A DNA stretch of 64,000 bases from Conexibacter woesei Iso977N (GTDB taxonomy: Bacteria; Actinomycetota; Thermoleophilia; Solirubrobacterales; Solirubrobacteraceae): positions 1,178,001-1,242,000 of the forward strand of contig NZ_AUKG01000001.1 in assembly GCF_000424625.1 (NCBI RefSeq), in the 5' to 3' direction. The notes beneath the pieces are model-generated. The model saw nothing but the letters and a program-made list of their open reading frames with translations, did not search any database and was not told where the DNA came from. Within the stretch, counting starts at the first letter, position 1; the number at the start of each line of letters is the position of its first letter. Below are positions 599-11,386 of the stretch, piece by piece. Made by a program: the position numbers and the translations under genes.

Positions 599-847
599 AT
601 GACACAGCTCGAACTGCCCTTCGACGATGAGCCGTCGCCAGAGGCCTCATCGCCGGGATACCTCACGATCGCCGAGGCCGCCGAGCGGGTCCGCTGCCAT
701 GAGCGGACGATCCGCCGGGCGATCGACCGCGGCGCGTTGCGCGCCGGACGCGTCCGCGGGGCGAATGCCGCCCGCGGCGCGTTCCGGATACGGCCGGCGG
801 ACCTGGACCGCTGGCTGTTCTCGGACGATGATGAGGAGGCGCCATGA
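599..847 (+). CDS. Excisionase-family helix-turn-helix protein
   Basis: This 82-residue protein starts at ATG 599, with a GAAGAGG ribosome binding site just upstream. It carries one MerR/excisionase-type winged helix: YLTIAEAAERVRCHERTIRR, then AIDRGALRAGRVRG, then FRIRPADLDRWL. This is the standard arrangement of HTH_17 proteins that bind att sites or element promoters. An acidic tail (SDDDEEAP) follows. Its stop overlaps the ATG at 844 of the integrase reading frame (ATGA), so the two were translationally coupled. The position between the tRNA att site and the integrase supports a role as recombination directionality factor or regulator. Confidence 0.8.
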   Translation: MTQLELPFDDEPSPEASSPGYLTIAEAAERVRCHERTIRRAIDRGALRAGRVRGANAARGAFRIRPADLDRWLFSDDDEEAP

Positions 848-1989
848 CCCTTCGCCTCCGACTCGCGCAAGCCGCGCGTCGAGTTGCGCCGTCGGCGTCG
901 GACCGACGGCAGCATCTCGACGACGCCGACCGTGCGCTGGACGGAACAGGACGGCGCCCGCCGTCGGTTGAGCTTCGACACGTTCGAGGAAGCGGACCTG
1001 GAGCGAGCGCGCCTGGCGCTGGAACTGGCGCAGCACGGGACGATCGGCGGCGTGGTCAAGGACAACACCTTGGCCGCGCTGTGGCCGACCTACCGCGCCG
1101 ACGCCGTCGCGCGCTTAGCTCGGGGACGATCGTCAGCTACGACCGTTGCTGGGCTCGCCACCTCGCGCCGCGCTTCGGCGACATGGCGCTGGACGAGATC
1201 ACGCCGCGCTCGGTCGCGCAGTGGCGCGCCGACATGTTGGACAACGGGATCGGTTGCGAGACGGTACGCCGCGCGATGGTGTTGTTACAGGCCATGTTCA
1301 CGCTCGGTGTCGAGTGGGGTGAGGCCGAGCGCAATCCGGTCTCGGTCGTGCGCAAGCCTCGTCAAGGTCGTACGCGCGCGATCGAGGTCCTGGACCCGGC
1401 AACTGTCGAGCGGCTGCGCCGCGCGCTGCTCGCGGACGGCGACCACTTCTCCGCAACGCTGGTGAGCGTGCTGGCCTACGCCGGCGTCCGTCCAGGCGAA
1501 GGCATAGCACTTGAACGACGCCACATCCGCGAGGACACCATCTTGGTCGAGCAGGCGGTGTCCTACGGGTCTCTGAAGTTGCAGAAGACCGGCCGCGTCC
1601 ACCGGACCGTCGACTCCTCCCAGAGCTTCGCGAGGACATCTTGGGCTGGTGCGACATGAAGGACATCACCCGACGCGACGCACCTCTGTTCGGCCGAAGC
1701 GACGGCGATTGGATGCGACCCGACGACTGGAAGAACTGGCGCCGCCGCCGTCGTCAACGCGACAACCGAGGCCATCAACCTCGGCCGCCCACGCCCTTAC
1801 GACCTCCGCCACTCCTTCGCCTCGCTGATGATCCGCGACGGCAACACCTCGATCGTCGAGCTCGCCGAGCAACTCGGCCACTCACCGACCGAGACGCTGA
1901 AGACCTACGCTCACGTCTTCGCCGAGCACCGGCGACAGCCTCGCGTGCCGGCGAGCGACCTCATCCGAGCGGCTCGGTCGGCGTCCTGA
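844..1989 (+). pseudogene. Tyrosine recombinase (integrase), broken by several frameshifts
   Basis: Joined across frames, this encodes an integrase of about 370 residues. An N-terminal arm-binding region (DGSISTTPTVRWTEQDG) lies in one frame up to about 1110. The core-binding region (SYDRCWARHLAPRFGDM) and first catalytic Arg (AGVRPGEG) lie in a second frame up to about 1610. ELREDILGWCDMKD is in a third frame up to about 1740. The last part, with YDLRHSFASLMI and the nucleophile Tyr in LKTYAHVF, is back in the second frame and ends at the TGA at 1987. The catalytic R, K, H/Y-R and Y residues are all still readable, but no single frame spans them. The N-terminal segment is also out of frame with the ATG at 844, so a further frameshift near the start is possible. 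The gene is therefore recently inactivated, or the assembly has indel errors here. Confidence 0.85.
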
Positions 1990-1994
1990 GATGT

Positions 1995-2037
1995 GGTCCG
2001 AGCGTCGTCGATGCTCGGACCGGAGGGGGAGAGTTTT
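1995..2037 (+). terminator. Hairpin after the integrase
   Basis: The perfect 9-bp arms GGTCCGAGC (1995-2003) and GCTCGGACC (2013-2021) enclose a 9-base loop. A purine-rich stretch and TTTT at 2034-2037 follow. The hairpin starts 6 bases after the integrase stop. It probably acts as a terminator, although the T run is displaced from the stem. Confidence 0.5.
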
Positions 2038-2093
2038 CGTCCCCACGCCCTAGAGGAATCAGGAGAGGTCCCTCCCCTAGAGAATCGAAAAGC

Positions 2094-2972: not shown

Positions 2973-3418
2973 GTGGCCGACACGATCACCCCCGAACCTT
3001 CAACTCCCGCAGCTCGTGCGACGATGCGCGCCAACCGCGGCCACGACACAGGCCCTGAACTGGCTCTACGGCGAGCACTCCATCGGCGGGGGCTCCGTTA
3101 TCGGGTGAACCACGCACCGGTGGCCGGACTTCGCTGCCGCCCGGATATCGTGTTCACGCGAGCACGAGTTGCGGTATTCGTCGATGGATGCTTTGGCACT
3201 GCTGCCCGCTACACGGCACCTGGCCGAAGGCGAATGCTGCGTGGTGGCGCAACAAGCTCGACGCCAACGTCGAACGAGACCGTCGAAACGACCTCGCTCT
3301 CACCGTTCGAGGGTGGCGCGTCGTGCGGATCTGGGAGCACGAGAACGTCGATCAGGCGGCGGTAAAGATCGCGATGCTCATTGGCCCAGGGCGAGCTCGC
3401 GACGCCACCAAACGATAA
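2973..3418 (+). pseudogene. vsr: Very-short-patch-repair (Vsr) endonuclease, one frameshift
   Basis: Vsr nicks next to T:G mismatches left by deamination of 5-methylcytosine, and its gene usually accompanies a cytosine methyltransferase. From the GTG at 2973, the first frame reads through STPAARATMRANRGHDTGPE, RRALHRRGLRYRVN and RPDIVFTRARVAVFVDGCF. It then leaves register at the TTT of 3192-3194. In another frame the expected continuation appears: WHCCPLHGTWPKANAAWW, then KLDANVERDRRNDLALTV and GWRVVRIWEHENVD, ending at 3418. One extra T would restore a normal protein of about 148 residues. The metal-binding Asp (RPDIVF) and the WHCCPLHG region are present. It is either a pseudogene or a one-base assembly error. 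Confidence 0.85.
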
Positions 3419-3692: not shown

Positions 3693-6677
3693 GTGCCTGG
3701 CTTCCGCGCTAGCGCGCGAACCGTCGATCTATTGGGGCGTCAGCAGATCGCAGGGATCCCCACCGCGATCAGCGAGCTGTTCAAGAACGCCCACGACGCG
3801 TACGCACAACACGTTGAGGTTGACCTACTCCGGCCTCAAAACCTCCTTGTTCTCCGCGACGACGGCATCGGGATGACCGAGGCTGATTTCGTCGATCGCT
3901 GGTTGACGCTTGGGACTGAGAGCAAGGTCGAAGGGTCTGGACTCGGTCGGCCACCAAAGCCGCGAAACGCTGCGGCACGCCCGGTTCTCGGCGAGAAAGG
4001 CATCGGCCGACTGGCGATTGCGTCGATCGGGCCCCAGACGCTCGTTGTCACGCGTGCACAACGCGGTAGCACGTTGCACGAGCCGATCGTCGCCTTGATT
4101 AGCTGGACGCTTTTCCAACTGCCGGGTATCAGCCTCGACGACATTCTGGTGCCGATCCGACGCCTCCCCAACGGTCGGCTTCCGACCGCGGCATTGGTCC
4201 GTGAGATGTCGGCCGAAGTCCTCGCGAACCTTCGAGCGGTGGCGCCTCGGGCTAGTTCCGACCTGGTCGCCCGCGCAACGGCACAGCTTGAAGACTTGAG
4301 CTTGGACCCAGCATCACTTGATGCTCTCCTCGGCAGACCGTCCCTCTCCGGCGATGGACACGGGACGCAGTTCTTCGTGTCTCCGGTTGAAGGTGCCTTA
4401 ATCGCCGACCTCGACGCCGAGAGAGTTGAGTGGGGAACGTCGGACGTGAAGCGAACACTCATCGGGTTCGCGAACACAATGACGCCTGGTCATTCCGCTG
4501 AGCGCATCACGACAGCATTTCGCGACCATCAGAGCGCAGAAGTCGTGACCGACGTCATCGGGTCAGATGAGTTCTTCACTGAAGAGGAATTCCGGAGAGC
4601 GGACCACCACATCCAGGGGACGTTCGATGAATACGGCCAGTTTTCTGGAACAGTGACCGTGTTCGACCAGCCGCCACAAGACCATCGTGTCCCGTGGCCA
4701 GACGCCCGCGGTCGCAAACTTGACTGCGGGCCATTTCGTCTGAATCTAGCCGTCGTCCAGGGCGATCGCCAGGAGAGCCTTCTCGACCGCGACACGTGGG
4801 TTGAACTGACCCGCAAGATGAATGCCATTGGCGGTCTTTACATCTATCGCGACGCGATTCGCGTCCTTCCCTATGGAAACGCCGATAACGACTTTCTGGA
4901 GATCGAGCGCAACCGAACGAAGAACGCTGGGCGCTACTACTTTTCGTATCGGCGGATGTTCGGGGTCGTGGAACTCGACTCCGACGAGAACCGAGCACTT
5001 CAGGAAAAGGCTGGCCGTGAAGGCTTCCTCGACAATCGCGCCTACCGTCAATTTCGCGGTGTCCTGCGCAACTTCTTCGTCCGCACAGCCTTTGACTACT
5101 TCGCTGTCGAAGGGGCGGCTTCCGCCGCCTACCAAGAGACTCGCGACAACCTGCAGGCAGCGAATCGGGAAGCCGAGCGCCAGGAAAAGCTGAAGCGAAA
5201 GCGACGACGCGCTTATGCGCTGGAGTTGGAAGAACGCTTTCGGCAGGTCCAAGCAGGCCAGCCCGAGCTGGACGCTGCAGCTGTTCTCAATGAACTCGAT
5301 GGCCGCTTGAGCGCAGCAGCCGGTGACCGCGACACCAGTCACGCCACGGAAGAGTTCGTCCGTGCGGAGATCGAAGCCCGCCGCGAGCTTGAGAGAGTGC
5401 GGGCGCGCTATCGCCTCGCGGCGCCGCGCGGTCTCGGTCTATCGCGATCGGTGCGCAACGAGGCGGCGTCATATAACCGCGAATTCGAGCGGCTCGACCA
5501 CGAGGTGATCCGGCCAGCAGCCGAACAGATCGACGCGCTCGTCGCACTGCGATCTGAAGATCTGAAACTCGCCCTGGACCGCCGGCTCCGGCTGGAGGCG
5601 TTGATCGACGAGGTCGCCCGACGCGGGGTTACCTCAGTTGGTCGAGCCGCGCGAGACGCCCGAGAGCGTGCACGAAGCGTGTCGGACGGCGTCGACGAGC
5701 TCGCTCGGACAGCCCGCAAGCAGTTGGAAGCAGTGATCAACGACACACGCGCAGACGTTGCACGCCTAGACGTGTCGTCGATCTCTGAGTCTGAACTCGT
5801 TGAGCATCGACTTCGCCTCGAGGCAACCGTGGATCAGGCCGCAGAGCACGAGCGCGAGTTGTTGGACGCACTTATCGAGCAACTCGGGGGCATCGCGCTC
5901 GCTCGCAACGGGGGCGGCGACGCAGTCAGTGCGCTTCAGGCACAACAACAACAAGAGGACAAGCTTCTCGCCCTTGAGGATCGCGCCGATGTCGACCTGG
6001 AGATGGCAACACAGGGTTTGGCGATCCAGGTCATCAACCATGAGTTCGCGCATTCCATCGGTGCAGTGCGAGAAAATCTGAAGCGGCTCAGCGCGTGGTC
6101 TCAGGTGAACCCGGACCTGCGGCGACTCTACGGTGATATCCGGGCATCATTCGATCACCTTGACGGCTATCTCCGACTGTTTACACCGCTGCAGCGACGG
6201 CTGAACCGGCGGCGCGAATCAATTGCGGGCGGCGAGATCGTCGCGTACGTAGAAGACGTCTTCCGGCGATCAATTGACGAGGCTCGCGCTGGGACGCGCG
6301 AACCGCTGCTCGTTGCGTCAGCAGATTTCCGCCATCATGAGGTCGTTGGCTATCGGTCGACGTTCTATCCCGTGTTCGTCAACCTGGTCGACAACGCTCT
6401 GTACTGGGCGGAGCGGGCCTCTGACCGTCCGCAGGTTCGACTCGGCGTCCGCGGCAGGACACTAACCGTCTGCGACAACGGTCCGGGCATCGAGCCGCGT
6501 CACCGCGACCAGATCTTCGAGATGGGGTGGACACTGAAGCCAGGCGGTCGGGGGGCCGGGCTCAACATCTCGCGTCAGGTACTCGACGCCGAGGGCTGGT
6601 CTCTAGAGGTGGTGCCGTCGGAATCTGGCGCATGCCTTGGTTTGCAACCGCGAGAGGACCCCGAAAGTAGTGACTGA
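3693..6677 (+). CDS. Dual GHKL ATPase: MORC/Hsp90-like N-terminus, coiled coil, histidine-kinase-like C-terminus
   Basis: This is a 994-residue cytosolic protein. The GTG start at 3693 has a good AGGAGG site (3679-3684). Residues 20-110 form a GHL-type ATP-binding site: N-box ISELFKNAHDAYA (Glu28, Asn32), G1 motif DDGIGM (about 56-61) and G2 motif LGEKGIGRLA (about 99-108). This is the style of MutL, Hsp90 and MORC. A middle region is followed by a long charged coiled coil (about residues 490-780). Then comes a DHp-like helix VINHEFAHSIGAVRENLKRL (His783 and His787), followed by a second Bergerat fold: N-box NLVDNALYW (from about 897), G1 CDNGPGI and G2 GGRGAGLNISRQ. It therefore joins a conformational ATPase to a kinase-like ATPase. 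The next gene overlaps it and encodes a receiver-like protein. No membrane segments are seen. Its neighbours Vsr and Dcm point to genome defence or DNA-damage sensing. The exact activity is inferred. Confidence 0.8.
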   Translation: MPGFRASARTVDLLGRQQIAGIPTAISELFKNAHDAYAQHVEVDLLRPQNLLVLRDDGIGMTEADFVDRWLTLGTESKVEGSGLGRPPKPRNAAARPVLGEKGIGRLAIASIGPQTLVVTRAQRGSTLHEPIVALISWTLFQLPGISLDDILVPIRRLPNGRLPTAALVREMSAEVLANLRAVAPRASSDLVARATAQLEDLSLDPASLDALLGRPSLSGDGHGTQFFVSPVEGALIADLDAERVEWGTSDVKRTLIGFANTMTPGHSAERITTAFRDHQSAEVVTDVIGSDEFFTEEEFRRADHHIQGTFDEYGQFSGTVTVFDQPPQDHRVPWPDARGRKLDCGPFRLNLAVVQGDRQESLLDRDTWVELTRKMNAIGGLYIYRDAIRVLPYGNADNDFLEIERNRTKNAGRYYFSYRRMFGVVELDSDENRALQEKAGREGFLDNRAYRQFRGVLRNFFVRTAFDYFAVEGAASAAYQETRDNLQAANREAERQEKLKRKRRRAYALELEERFRQVQAGQPELDAAAVLNELDGRLSAAAGDRDTSHATEEFVRAEIEARRELERVRARYRLAAPRGLGLSRSVRNEAASYNREFERLDHEVIRPAAEQIDALVALRSEDLKLALDRRLRLEALIDEVARRGVTSVGRAARDARERARSVSDGVDELARTARKQLEAVINDTRADVARLDVSSISESELVEHRLRLEATVDQAAEHERELLDALIEQLGGIALARNGGGDAVSALQAQQQQEDKLLALEDRADVDLEMATQGLAIQVINHEFAHSIGAVRENLKRLSAWSQVNPDLRRLYGDIRASFDHLDGYLRLFTPLQRRLNRRRESIAGGEIVAYVEDVFRRSIDEARAGTREPLLVASADFRHHEVVGYRSTFYPVFVNLVDNALYWAERASDRPQVRLGVRGRTLTVCDNGPGIEPRHRDQIFEMGWTLKPGGRGAGLNISRQVLDAEGWSLEVVPSESGACLGLQPREDPESSD

Positions 6678-8211
6678 TCTCGTAGACCTCAGCCGCGCCG
6701 CAGCGCGGGAGTTCATTCAGTCCGCCGTGGTCATCGATGACGAGGCAGGGCAGTTGACCGACGACGATGTGGCGCCCGGCGCGGCGTCTGCGTTGACGAC
6801 GCCCTCGGTGGGAGCGACCACCTCGGAGTCAGCACAGAACGAGCCGACCCGGCGGCCGCGTCATCCGCTTCGCAGCAAAGCGCTGGTAGAGACTTTCGCC
6901 AGCCTCGGCGTTGTATGTGGCGTCCTGCAGCCAACCGAACCCGAGGGCGATCCGGTTGACAGCGTCTTCGCTCAGGCGGTGTCGCGCGCCGACGTCGTCA
7001 TCCTTGATTGGCAGCTGAATCAGGACCGCGGAGAACGAGCCCTCGGGTACATCAGGCAGATCTTGGACGCGGACAACGAGCGGCTGCGTCTCGTGGCTAT
7101 CTACACAGGCGAGAGCGCATTGGAAGACATCGCTCGCCTGATCGCCGAGGAGCTGGGCGCTGATTACTCGGAGGACGACCCATTTGTCGTCGTGTACGGT
7201 GCGATGCGGCTGGCTGTGTTCGCCAAAGAGGTTGCTCGTGATCAAGGCGCTGAGGCGGCCCGAGTCCTGGTAGAGGAAGAGCTTCCTGGGCAACTCGTCA
7301 ACGAGTTTGCGTGGGCCAACCAGGGTGTCGTCCCTGCCGCAACCATGCGAGCATTGGCTGCGATGCGCCGGAACGCCCACCGGATGCTTCTCGCCCTCGG
7401 GGCGGAACTCGACGTCGGATTCCTTGCCCACCGAATGCTCTTGCCAGACCCGGAAGACGCCGAGGAGCACCTTCTTGGACTGATCGTTTCGGAATTGGAG
7501 TCCATCATCTTCGACGATCTCGCAACGCGCGAAATCGCTGGTACCGCCGGAGCGGTCGCATGGCTGACACACAACGTCGAGGGTGGAGACGACCGGAAGC
7601 CGACTCGTGAGGAACTTGAGCGGTGCCTTACGGAAGGCTTCAGTAAAGCGAAGGCCACAGCGCCCGGGCTGCAGGATTTCGAGAAGAAGACCATCACGAG
7701 TGCGCTGGGAGACGCAGAAGCCGGGCTGACGTCGGGGCGGGACTTCGCCATGCGGATGACGCTTCGCACTGCTTACGAACGCCCTCCTAAGCGCCTGACG
7801 TTCGGTTGCTTGCTACGCGACAGTTCCGACGACTACTACTTGTGCGTCCAGCCGGCCTGCGACGCCCTCCGTCTTGAGGACGAGACCCGCTTCCCGCTGC
7901 TTCCGTGCGAAGTGGTCACGGCTGACCGCTACGACCTGGTTGTTTGCGATCGCGACGTGGAGCGCCGACTCAAGGTGGTTCGGCAACCGCGTCGGCTGCG
8001 GATGGTCGCCTTTCTGCCCGATCCGACTCAACGCTCCGTAATCGCGGGATCCGGAGAGATCTTCTCGTCAGTTAACGAGGGAGATTTTGTGCTCGTGGGT
8101 CGGCTCAAGCCCGACATGACGCAGCAGGAGGCTCACGGCATGGGGCACGCTTTCTCACGACCGGGCATCGACGTTCCAGAGTTCCTGCGGATTCGCAAGC
8201 CGCGCGACTAA
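6670..8211 (+). CDS. Receiver-domain protein partnered with the dual ATPase
   Basis: I place the start at GTG 6670, which overlaps the upstream stop (GTGACTGA). An in-frame ATG at 6637 also exists but would overlap the ATPase gene more deeply. The 513-residue product has a receiver-like N-terminus. VVIDDEA (Asp23/24) gives the acidic pair, DVVILDWQL (Asp113) gives the phosphoacceptor, and AIYTGES (Thr146) matches the conserved Thr after strand 4. Between the acidic pair and Asp113 there is a longer than usual linker, rich in acidic, Ser and Thr residues. The C-terminal 350 residues (for example MRALAAMRRNAHRMLLALGA and VVRQPRRLRMVAFLPD) match no output domain I know and show no DNA-binding HTH. 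Coupling to a kinase-like ATPase suggests a two-component-type switch whose output is this unknown domain. Confidence 0.75.
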   Translation: MTDLVDLSRAAAREFIQSAVVIDDEAGQLTDDDVAPGAASALTTPSVGATTSESAQNEPTRRPRHPLRSKALVETFASLGVVCGVLQPTEPEGDPVDSVFAQAVSRADVVILDWQLNQDRGERALGYIRQILDADNERLRLVAIYTGESALEDIARLIAEELGADYSEDDPFVVVYGAMRLAVFAKEVARDQGAEAARVLVEEELPGQLVNEFAWANQGVVPAATMRALAAMRRNAHRMLLALGAELDVGFLAHRMLLPDPEDAEEHLLGLIVSELESIIFDDLATREIAGTAGAVAWLTHNVEGGDDRKPTREELERCLTEGFSKAKATAPGLQDFEKKTITSALGDAEAGLTSGRDFAMRMTLRTAYERPPKRLTFGCLLRDSSDDYYLCVQPACDALRLEDETRFPLLPCEVVTADRYDLVVCDRDVERRLKVVRQPRRLRMVAFLPDPTQRSVIAGSGEIFSSVNEGDFVLVGRLKPDMTQQEAHGMGHAFSRPGIDVPEFLRIRKPRD

Positions 8212-8225
8212 ATTGGACCGCGGCG

Positions 8226-9344
8226 TCACTCCGCCCCCCGATCGCTAACGCTTTTGTTAGCGGCAGTCGTAAGCGCCACGGCGATGACTTCGGCCTGTGA
8301 TTGAACGAAGCCGGGCGGCAGCGCATTGCCGATGAGTTCCGCCGCCCGGTACTTGCCACGCGAGAGCGGAAATCTGTAGTCCGGCGGAAACCCCTGCAGC
8401 AGGGCGGCTTCGCGCAATGTGATCGCGCGATTCTGCTCGGGATGCAAGAAACGGCCCTTACTGGGATTGATGCAACCACCGGTCAGAGTGGGCGCCGGGT
8501 CGTCCCAGCTCATGCGACCGTAGATGTCGAAGAACCCCGGGTTGGGACGGTCCTCTGTGCGCTGGTGACAGGCCAACTGCGCGTCTTCACCAAGAAGTCG
8601 AAAGGAGCCGCCGTCCCGTGGGACCTGCTCAATTCGGCGCTGAATCTTGATGCTGCGGCTCTCACCATGATTGTGAAGGGCATCGGAACTGTTGTCTGGA
8701 ACGGGTAGCCCACCGATTGCGTCCCGAACGCTCTGCGCCAGCTCCGTCCGCTCGACCAGACCGATGCGGCCGCCATGCAGCGCCAGCATCACTAGCCGCC
8801 GCCGGCGCTGGGGAACGCCGAAGTCCGCAGCGTCAAGAATGCCGTAGGCGCACCCGTAGCCTAGGCGCTCGAGCCGCGCCCGAAGCCGGCCAAACCGAAT
8901 GTCACGACCCAGCGCAGGCACATTCTCCATCAGCAGCGCCTTCGGGAGAAGCGCTTCCGCGAATCTCCCGAACTGGCTCACGAGTGAGTTGCGGGGATCC
9001 TTGACACTCGTGGTTTGACGTCGTGTCTTGACTGTCGAGAAACCTTGGCAAGGCGGACAACCTGCCAGGAGGTCGAGCTGTCCCACCTTCAATCCCAACT
9101 CGTCCGCCATCCCGAGGGGCTCGAGCGTACGGATGTCCTGCTCCCAAACACGTACGTCCGGATGATTGGCCTGGTAAGCCTCGATCGCGAGTGGCTCAAT
9201 GTCTACCGCGCCAATCACCGAGAAATTGGCATTGGCCAGCCCGACGCTCATGCCTCCAGCACCGCAGAAGAGATCGATTGCTGTCAGGAGTGGCTTTTGG
9301 GTTCTCCGAGCGACTGTCGCCCTTGCGTCCGTGACCTCACTCAC
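8226..9344 (-). CDS. DNA (cytosine-5-)-methyltransferase
   Basis: The enzyme transfers a methyl group from SAM to C5 of cytosine in a specific DNA site. The conserved blocks appear in order: motif I AIDLFCGAGGMSVGL, motif IV GCPPCQGFS with the catalytic Cys, motif VI ENVP, motif VIII QRRRRLVML, the target-recognition region, then LTGGCINPS, REAALLQGFPPDY and motif X IGNALPP. Starting at GTG 9344, with AAAGGG just upstream, gives 372 residues, normal for the Dcm family. An ATG at 9425 would add 27 arginine-rich residues that do not resemble the family. It converges on the receiver gene. No restriction endonuclease gene is next to it; Vsr in the same element is its usual repair partner. Confidence 0.92.
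   Translation of the reverse strand: MSEVTDARATVARRTQKPLLTAIDLFCGAGGMSVGLANANFSVIGAVDIEPLAIEAYQANHPDVRVWEQDIRTLEPLGMADELGLKVGQLDLLAGCPPCQGFSTVKTRRQTTSVKDPRNSLVSQFGRFAEALLPKALLMENVPALGRDIRFGRLRARLERLGYGCAYGILDAADFGVPQRRRRLVMLALHGGRIGLVERTELAQSVRDAIGGLPVPDNSSDALHNHGESRSIKIQRRIEQVPRDGGSFRLLGEDAQLACHQRTEDRPNPGFFDIYGRMSWDDPAPTLTGGCINPSKGRFLHPEQNRAITLREAALLQGFPPDYRFPLSRGKYRAAELIGNALPPGFVQSQAEVIAVALTTAANKSVSDRGAE
8243..8262 (+). terminator. Hairpin between the receiver gene and the methyltransferase
   Basis: CGCTAAC (8243-8249) and GTTAGCG (8256-8262) form a perfect 7-bp stem with the T-containing loop GCTTTT. The hairpin begins 32 bases after the receiver stop codon and lies inside the 3' end of the convergent methyltransferase gene. 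It may terminate the plus-strand operon. Confidence 0.35.
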
Positions 9345-9845
9345 CGGCGGGCCCTTTGGCCGGGCGCTCCGGGGAGCAAGAGCCGAACCGACGCGGGCGA
9401 CACGGCGAGATTCGTTGCGGCGCAACGCTCTGCTGACCGGCTACAGCCCGGCTGGAGGTTGCGCCGTGCTCGAAGATATTGCGCGCGCGAGGACACTCGC
9501 GCGATCCTAGCCGGGCACCCGGCGGCAGCGGGTCGTGATGGCCCTTGGCGTCGGCCAACGGCTATCCAAGGCCCCGCGGCGAGAATCCTGCGGCGAGAAT
9601 CAGGTGAGCGCGAGACTTCCATTCGATTGGGGCGGACGATGACCTGATGAACCTGGGCATCGTCCTGTGATCGACGTCGGCCGGTGCCTCGCGGCAGAGG
9701 CGACGGGGCGGGACCAGATTGGGTCCCAAGCTCCGTTCCGCTCGGTTACACTCCACCCATGCCTAGTCTGCAAAGCCTTGCGCTTTGCAGCGACTTGACT
9801 AGCACCGACACAACTCCTTCAACCACTGAGACCACCCGAGTGGCG
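9345..9845. other. Right end of the element without a clear gene
   Basis: No convincing protein is seen between the methyltransferase start and the right att repeat. The stretch contains a short tandem repeat (two copies of CGGCGAGAATC near 9578-9602) and the hairpin described separately at 9763-9802. The methyltransferase promoter must lie in this stretch, but I could not fix its -35 and -10 boxes. Confidence 0.4.
9763..9802. repeat. Inverted repeat just inside the right att repeat
   Basis: CTGCAAAGC (9768-9776) and GCTTTGCAG (9782-9790) are perfect arms around a 5-base loop. They are flanked by the shorter pair CTAGT (9763-9767) and ACTAG (9798-9802). It lies 44 bases from the right att core, so it could be a recombinase or directionality-factor arm site, or the terminator of a lost gene. 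Confidence 0.45.
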
Positions 9846-9960: not shown

Positions 9961-10386
9961 ATGGACAAGAACAAGTTGCCCGCCCCGGACGAGGGGTTCG
10001 TCGTTACGCAGTTCCTCGCCGTCCGGGATGTTGCGCGGTCGCGGGAGTTCTATGTGGATGTGCTCGGTGGGGAGGTTGTGGTTGAGGAGGATCCGTGCAT
10101 CGTGAGGCTGGCGAACTCGTGGTTGATCATGAACCCGGGTGGGGGGCCGACGGCGGATAAGCCGGGGGTCACGATCGTTGAACACGAGGTGGGGGATGAG
10201 GTCTCGAGCTTCCTGAACTTGCGTGTTGCTGATGTCGCGGCGTCATATGAGACCTGGAAGGCCCGGGGTGCTGAGTTCTTGACGCCGCCGATCGATCGTG
10301 GGGCTGAGATCCGGTGTTACATGCGGGATCCGGATGGCTACCTGATCGAGGTTGGGCAGTCGACCGGGCTGCTGGACCGGGGCTGA
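9961..10386 (+). CDS. VOC-superfamily (glyoxalase/bleomycin-resistance-like) protein
   Basis: This 141-residue cytosolic protein starts at ATG 9961; a further upstream start would add only a Gly-rich tail. One VOC module is seen. FLAVRDVARSREFYVDVLGG is the classic first beta-alpha unit, and CYMRDPDGYLIEVGQS is the last strand with the usual metal-binding Glu. Family members are metal-dependent dioxygenases, isomerases or antibiotic-binding proteins, and the substrate cannot be told here. It is the first chromosomal gene to the right of the element. Confidence 0.8.
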   Translation: MDKNKLPAPDEGFVVTQFLAVRDVARSREFYVDVLGGEVVVEEDPCIVRLANSWLIMNPGGGPTADKPGVTIVEHEVGDEVSSFLNLRVADVAASYETWKARGAEFLTPPIDRGAEIRCYMRDPDGYLIEVGQSTGLLDRG

Positions 10387-10462
10387 CGGTGAGGTGTGTG
10401 CACCCCCGCGGGAGGCGCGGGTGCACGGTGGGCGGCGGGGCGGCGAGGCGGTACAAGGGCTC

Positions 10463-11386
10463 ATGGGCTCTCCGTATCCGCTGGTGGATCAGCTGATCGT
10501 CACGCCGGGCGAACCGGCGGGCTTGGCGGCGCGGGATCCGGGGTGGACCGGCGGTGAGGATCTCGCGCATCTCGCGAGCGATGAGCGCCAGCGCCTGGCG
10601 CAGGATGTGATCGCCGAGGGTGTCGCTGAGCTGGCCGAGGCGCAGGAGCTGTTGTGGGCCAGCGATCGCTACGCGGTCCTGGTGGTACTCCAGGCGATGG
10701 ATGCGGCCGGCAAGGACTCGGTCATCAAGCACGTCATGTCGGGGATGAACCCGCAGGGTGTGGACGTCGTCTCGTTCCGCAGGCCGTCGGCGGAAGAGCT
10801 GGACCATGACTTCCTGTGGCGCATCTCCAGGGCGCTGCCGGAGCGGGGGCGGATCGGGATCTTCAACCGCTCGCACTACGAGGAGGTCGTCGCGCTGCGC
10901 GTGCATCCGGAATGGCTCGCTCCGCAGCGGCTCCCGGACGGCCCGCGCGACGACGCGTTCTGGGCGGCGCGGTACGAGGACATCAACACCTTCGAGCGGC
11001 ACCTGGATCGCAACGGCACCAAGGTGGTGAAGTTCTTCCTGCACGTGGGCAAGGACGTCCAGAAGGAGCGCTTCCTCTCCCGCCTGGACCGGCCCGGCAA
11101 GGAGTGGAAGTTCAACGCCGCCGACGTCGCCGAGCGCGCGCGGTTCGACGAGTACCTCGGCGCCTTCGAGACCGCGCTGACCGCCACGTCGACCCCCTGG
11201 GCGCCCTGGTACGTCGTCCCGGCCGACCACTGGTGGGTGACGCAGGCGATCGTCGCGCGCGTCCTGGCGGTCACGCTCGGCGCGCTCGACCTGCGTTGGC
11301 CGGAGGTCAGCCCGGAGCAGCACGCCGCCAACCTGGAGGCCCGCGCGCTGCTCGACGCGGAGACCGCCACCGTTCAGGCCTCCTGA
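10463..11386 (+). CDS. ppk2: Polyphosphate kinase 2 family protein
   Basis: PPK2 enzymes move phosphate between polyphosphate and nucleotides, making NDP or NTP from NMP or NDP. The 307-residue protein has the Walker-A-like loop VLQAMDAAGKDS, the family signature HVMSGMNPQGVDV, the lid region FRRPSAEELDHDFLWRI, and the Walker-B-like GIFNRSHYEEVVALRVHPE. This set resembles class III single-domain PPK2s, which can use both AMP and ADP; the class assignment is an inference. I chose the ATG at 10463 because the preceding in-frame residues look non-coding. The next gene starts on its stop (TGATG), so the two are coupled. Confidence 0.9.
   Translation: MGSPYPLVDQLIVTPGEPAGLAARDPGWTGGEDLAHLASDERQRLAQDVIAEGVAELAEAQELLWASDRYAVLVVLQAMDAAGKDSVIKHVMSGMNPQGVDVVSFRRPSAEELDHDFLWRISRALPERGRIGIFNRSHYEEVVALRVHPEWLAPQRLPDGPRDDAFWAARYEDINTFERHLDRNGTKVVKFFLHVGKDVQKERFLSRLDRPGKEWKFNAADVAERARFDEYLGAFETALTATSTPWAPWYVVPADHWWVTQAIVARVLAVTLGALDLRWPEVSPEQHAANLEARALLDAETATVQAS

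Follow-up and report, generated by a model that had tools for sequence, protein, structure and literature searches.

The closest described relatives of the gene pair considered here are the families HEF_HK (PF19191) and Response_reg_2 (PF19192), which were defined by Bellieny-Rabelo, Pretorius and Moleleki in 2021 (PMC8011034). In that work, the HEF_HK-Response_reg_2 linkage reached 91.6% in 644 regions, and a conserved His and Asp were described, the core His of HEF_HK lying in the first DHp helix with an acidic residue directly after it. The predominant architecture, found in 174 of 222 sequences and called group 1, consists of HATPase_c_3, HEF_HK and HATPase_c; group 1 proteins were described there as soluble and free of transmembrane regions. 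A marked excess of restriction-modification (R-M) genes was reported for the same regions, in which C5-methylases frequently lie upstream and Vsr was seen in 20 genera. The authors speculated that the system has a regulatory role, namely the control of R-M expression. Earlier work on paraMORC proteins had already connected methylases and Vsr with related GHKL ATPases, and the word 'receiver' is absent from that paper (Iyer et al. 2008, PMC2292703). Our literature search returned a single further paper in which the family names are used and no functional study of the family, and no phosphotransfer, DNA-binding or phage-resistance assay was found.

The window, i.e., the whole stretch of 64,000 nucleotides that was analysed, contains a kinase-receiver pair whose membership of the HEF_HK/Response_reg_2 family is practically certain. 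The kinase fits group 1, since it has the three Pfam domains in the same order, the residues H783-E784, a linked Response_reg_2 gene and a C5-methylase neighbour. The original prediction had considered the layout of two ATPases plus a receiver as potentially undescribed. This part has to be withdrawn: the same architecture, with an adjacent receiver gene and methylase and Vsr neighbours, was published in 2021 (PMC8011034), and a novel architecture is therefore rejected.

The kinase and its receiver

The two genes and their domains are as follows.
3693..6677, plus strand: HEF_HK protein (the kinase), 994 aa, from Pfam, an alignment of 53 homologues, an AlphaFold model and fold matches
Kinase residues about 1-240: N-terminal GHKL domain
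Kinase residues about 250-450: S5-like domain
Kinase residues about 478-745: coiled coil, seen as long helices in the model
Kinase residues 747-828: DHp-like HEF_HK helical hairpin with His783
Kinase residues 842-990: C-terminal histidine-kinase ATPase domain
6670..8211, plus strand: Response_reg_2 protein (the receiver protein), 513 aa, from Pfam, an alignment of 60 homologues, an AlphaFold model, fold matches and the start codon
Receiver-protein residues about 15-190: receiver domain with predicted phospho-acceptor D113
Receiver-protein residues about 190-365: all-helical middle domain
Receiver-protein residues about 370-513: C-terminal beta barrel with invariant G379, C392 and C397

The Pfam matches of both proteins all exceed the curated cut-offs. 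In the kinase, they are HATPase_c_3 (residues 24-124, 3e-13), HEF_HK (775-839, 7e-25) and HATPase_c (891-977, 8e-17). An AlphaFold model built with 53 aligned sequences as input (mean pLDDT of 81.7) contains both of the Bergerat folds that had been read from the single 994-residue chain, and the coiled coil that had been proposed to join them appears as the long helices listed above. A fold comparison of residues 5-481 of the model with MORC3 gave a Z score of 19.0 (rmsd of 4.0 over 330 residues). MORC3 was the best match of the N-terminal ~480 residues, which also matched SMCHD1, Hsp90/TRAP1 and MutL, in agreement with the MORC/MutL/Hsp90 type first assigned to them. Judging from the model, the N-terminus carries a predicted GHKL and S5 ATPase module, which is named here MORC-like rather than MORC. 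The last 150 residues resemble the catalytic domains of histidine kinases with Z scores of about 17, as had been expected of the C-terminal fold and its His-bearing helix. Across the 53 aligned kinases, E28, N32, G58, G100, G103 and G105 are invariant in the N-terminal ATPase and N897, N901, G930, G952, G954 and G956 in the C-terminal one; H783 and E784, a His followed by an acidic residue, are likewise invariant.

The open reading frame at 6637-8211 matches Response_reg_2 (PF19192, 6e-35). Two start codons were considered for it. GTG 6670 has a purine-rich GAGAGGA just upstream, yields a protein of 513 aa, and reproduces the numbering of Asp113 and Thr146 used in the original prediction. It gives an overlap of 8 nt with the kinase frame, of which the stop codon is 6675-6677, so the overlap of the two genes was correctly foreseen. 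On these letters, GTG 6670 appears the likelier start; TTG 6637 is the less likely candidate, given the GAGAGGA in front of its rival. The model of the receiver protein has a pLDDT of 89.5, and its receiver domain resembles PhoP, PorX and Spo0F-type receivers in fold comparison (Z 11-12). D23, D108, D113 and K186 are invariant across the 60 aligned receivers, and D24 and T146 are 92% conserved. The downstream gene thus encodes a true receiver, marked by D23/D24, D113, T146 and K186 and followed by a large output region, and the acidic pair, Asp113 and Thr146 on which the first assignment relied stand. With the C-terminal Bergerat fold of the kinase and the receiver fold of its neighbour both present in the AlphaFold models, structure prediction agrees with the assignment of the two proteins.

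Gene company, inheritance and mobility

Around the pair, the following features were recognised.
8226..9425, minus strand: Dcm-type C5-cytosine DNA methyltransferase, 399 aa, convergent with the pair (PF00145 1e-52, TIGR00675 5e-43)
2973..3418, plus strand: frame-disrupted vsr, with its N-terminal half in the ORF at 2973-3365 and the remainder in the frame of 3188-3418
844..2050, plus strand: phage-type integrase whose frame changes several times and contains a stop, from Pfam integrase SAM-like matches
346-418: tRNA-Thr(CGT), shortly before the integrase
383-847: excisionase-like HTH_17 ORF between the tRNA-Thr and the integrase
10352-11386: polyphosphate kinase 2 (PPK2) gene, beyond the cassette, in ordinary chromosomal context

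The methylase and Vsr that had been placed beside the pair are both there, the latter with a broken frame. The Pfam match of vsr (PF03852, 2e-17) spans residues 13-74 only. Three-frame translation showed that both halves match Vsr in two frames, with the shift near 3190, after the motif VFVDGCF, and that the catalytic motif of the integrase lies downstream of its internal stop. Positions 346-2050 were read as an integrative island's left end, which may have decayed or been hit by assembly indels. The frames of the kinase, receiver and methylase are full length in the window, and the first two align along their length with their relatives. The broken frames of vsr and the integrase reflect either decay of the island beyond its three-gene core or indel errors in the assembly, and in both cases the core is intact. 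No convincing att repeats were seen flanking the island, and a syntenic empty site was not found in the comparison with the genus, in which similarity was scattered.

To survey the gene company, the genome collection was searched with a profile of four kinases, and from the 350 relatives retrieved, the best 80 loci were taken, as ranked by similarity to the kinase group of the window. These loci span Acidobacteriota, Actinomycetota, Bacteroidota, Chloroflexota, Pseudomonadota, Nitrospira, methanogenic archaea and others. In 79 of these best 80 loci, the next gene after the kinase is that of the receiver, and the sole exception (L074) has just 32 bases downstream of the kinase. Recurrence in 79 of 80 independent loci means that the pairing is not due to chance, and the co-occurrence in other genomes expected of the two genes is there.

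Among the 45 loci having enough flank on both sides, a Dcm-type methylase was found near the pair in all, and Vsr in 25, with none detected near the cassette in the other 20. Because both were searched with a single sequence as the query, the count of Vsr may be too low. The methylase lies upstream on the same strand in most complete sets (65 of 72); a downstream position on the opposite strand, as in the window, occurs in six, the window included. Mantel tests gave r values of 0.87 for kinase and receiver, 0.67 for kinase and methylase and 0.61 for receiver and methylase (permutation maxima of 0.15-0.22). Because the distance matrices correlate this strongly, the three genes are largely inherited together. 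The methylase has probably been exchanged more often than the two partners of the pair.

The set is found on mobile DNA. Six viral contigs (IMG/VR, L131-L136) carry the methylase, kinase and receiver, one of them (L131) with a convergent methylase as in the window, and copies of the cassette occur on plasmids of Rhizobium, Pantoea and Pseudoalteromonas. The kinases of the proteobacterial plasmid versions (L006:8965-14956, L007:7769-13837, L008:7734-13825) are 26-29% identical to that of the window, and their receivers are larger (602-642 aa). These versions look like a divergent subfamily that is common to most of the viral contigs (26-31% identity). The INPHARED phage records contain no match to the kinase. 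Among relatives, the receiver family is rare, with 3 of 201 genomes positive when that of the window is counted. The viral, plasmid and tRNA/integrase contexts, together with the sparse spread, form the pattern of a mobile defence-type cassette, a pattern that does not prove defence. A role in defence or genome integrity is plausible, since the methylase is always present and the contexts are those of prophages, plasmids and tRNA islands.

The receiver output and the function of the cassette

The output region had been described as uncharacterised, and this was upheld: no Pfam family was matched, and among the 60 receiver proteins only Response_reg_2 is common to all. No sequence homologue in the PDB was found up to an E value of 5. 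A weak match to one unnamed PHROG was seen in one of the 60 members, and 396 genomes of the phylum yielded three matches to the output domain, all within frames of 534-613 codons that resemble known receivers. The region has its own conserved residues: R233, D248 and H254 in the helical domain, and, besides the invariant residues of the barrel listed above, near-invariant D398, R401, F408 and R497.

An effector was also sought among the neighbours. The 104 genes flanking the cassettes contain no recurrent endonuclease family; three HNH proteins, a few type I R-M proteins, one McrBC and others were seen. The annotated cassettes of Pantoea and Pseudoalteromonas likewise show methylase, kinase and receiver only, with no nuclease listed in a gene table that is incomplete. 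A constant extra effector gene can be rejected, the only repeated candidate being an AAA ATPase (OLD/AriA-like, about 600 aa) encoded close to the receiver gene in 11 loci, most of them from Bacteroidota according to their record titles (e.g., L047:13653-15437). It matches HEC-04 and AriA in PADLOC, vsr often comes next after it, and the loci concerned are a possible four- or five-gene subtype of the cassette. Because no nuclease family recurs among the flanking genes, the effector most likely lies inside the cassette itself, with the output region of the receiver protein as the candidate.

The best explanation of the whole is that the published two-component pair and a Dcm-type methylase form a mobile three-gene cassette of the defence type, a reading to which we give even prospects. 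A defensive sensing mechanism can be outlined for it more tentatively, and here our confidence stays somewhat below the midpoint. The methylase would mark the host's own sites, and the MORC-like N-terminal half of the kinase would dimerise on ATP and clamp DNA in the manner of MORC and MutL. Where the DNA is unmodified or otherwise abnormal, the DHp helices would receive the state of the clamp through the coiled coil, the C-terminal ATPase would phosphorylate His783, and the phosphate would pass to Asp113 of the receiver. The phosphorylated receiver would then free its helical and beta-barrel output, the putative effector. Vsr, where present, would repair T:G mismatches that arise from deamination of 5-methylcytosine. 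Against this explanation, vsr and the integrase of the window have broken frames, which may mean partial decay of this copy or indel errors in the assembly; and a regulatory role, the control of R-M expression, would give an identical genomic pattern.

What the output might do bears on the first alternative. It holds that the pair is a guard of the methylase, comparable to PrrC or RloC, which senses loss of modification or damage to host DNA instead of foreign DNA, and that the receiver, once phosphorylated, brings about arrest or death of the cell by means of a MazF/ToxN-fold output. Chains of MazF are indeed the solved structures nearest to the barrel in Foldseek (E values of 2.8e-3 to 5e-2, probabilities of 0.98-1.00, TM scores of 0.54-0.62 over the target), with those of E. 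coli MazF ranked at the top (E 2.8e-3, probability 1.00, TM about 0.6 over MazF). MazF-fold toxins have a role in abortive infection (PMC5086642), and Ymh-type HEPN fusions in R-M loci were proposed to be guards that combine a paraMORC with a toxin (PMC3710099). However, a profile-profile comparison of the barrel with about 30 MazF-family sequences (a first set had only two) gave nothing, and PemK/MazF Pfam matches were absent from all 60 members of the receiver family. The RP and T motifs of MazF are missing from the barrel, which conserves C392, C397, D398 and R401 instead, and a small beta barrel can match through topology alone. With the comparison empty and the motifs absent, the resemblance of the modelled barrel to MazF is a lead on the fold only. 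ToxN and Kid also have the MazF-type fold but non-matching active sites (PMC5086642), so the barrel may be an RNase despite the absent motifs. The guard is, in sum, rather unlikely. It is doubtful, too, that phosphorylation arms the barrel as a toxin of the MazF/ToxN fold, in which case a MORC-type clamp would act through a His-Asp phosphorelay on a nucleic-acid-targeting effector when methylation is missing, and the cassette would amount to methylation-checked abortive infection without a restriction enzyme.

Most response regulators are transcription factors, and the pair could be an ordinary regulatory two-component system that tunes the linked methylase or restriction genes, its output binding DNA or RNA polymerase. 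This is what the describing paper speculated (PMC8011034). However, no DNA-binding output family and no HTH or winged helix was found by Pfam among the 60 receiver proteins, and the model shows a helical domain and a beta barrel; moreover, the N-terminal half of the kinase is a full, conserved MORC-type ATPase and not a small-ligand sensor. We consider such a regulator unlikely. An accessory of Dcm/Vsr repair, in which the MORC/MutL-like protein aids very-short-patch repair and the receiver tunes it, is highly improbable: Vsr is frequent beside the pair (25 of 45 loci) and E. coli Vsr works with MutL, according to a citation in PMC2292703, but 20 of the 45 complete loci have no Vsr detected near the cassette and the vsr frame of the window is broken.

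To return to the defence-type cassette, the HEF_HK/Response_reg_2 system has stood as a bioinformatic prediction since 2021 and is both mobile and widespread. The present survey narrows it to a three-gene core without a recurrent adjacent nuclease, in which the output domain of the receiver protein is the likely effector. That output is the remaining interest of a system already published. If it is true that the output is a toxin or nuclease, the cassette would be a restriction-type defence with a response regulator as its effector.

Comparison with known systems

The pair shares with HEF_HK and Response_reg_2 as published (PMC8011034) the domain order, the adjacent receiver gene, the key residues and the company of methylase and Vsr. 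It differs in that the methylase of the window is convergent and downstream (6 of 72 sets) and not upstream (65 of 72), and in the frame-disrupted vsr. With the MORC/paraMORC GHKL ATPases of R-M systems (PMC2292703), the kinase has in common the N-terminal GHKL and S5-like module and its proximity to a methylase and Vsr. Some of those families terminate in a nuclease, a TIR domain or an unknown extension, and SFII helicases are often found beside them, whereas the window protein has a histidine kinase at its C-terminus and a receiver partner of its own.

The toxin fold of MazF, Kid, ToxN and CcdB is the closest solved fold to the C-terminal barrel of the receiver protein, but the barrel has neither sequence-profile similarity to MazF nor the MazF motifs, and its invariant residues are others. 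In classical type II R-M systems, a cognate restriction endonuclease lies next to the methylase; among the 104 flanking genes here, no recurrent endonuclease was recognised, though an unrecognised nuclease may be present.

Detocs (PMC11249213) demonstrates that two-component relays can serve as defence systems. Both it and the present cassette are multi-gene and two-component-based, and in Detocs, an established defence, the chain ends in an effector. No PNP domain occurs in the 60 receiver proteins, and PADLOC gave no Detocs match for the kinase or the receiver. The best-described Detocs uses a PNP as its effector, whereas the window system has a MORC-type ATPase as its sensor and a methylase attached (PMC11249213).
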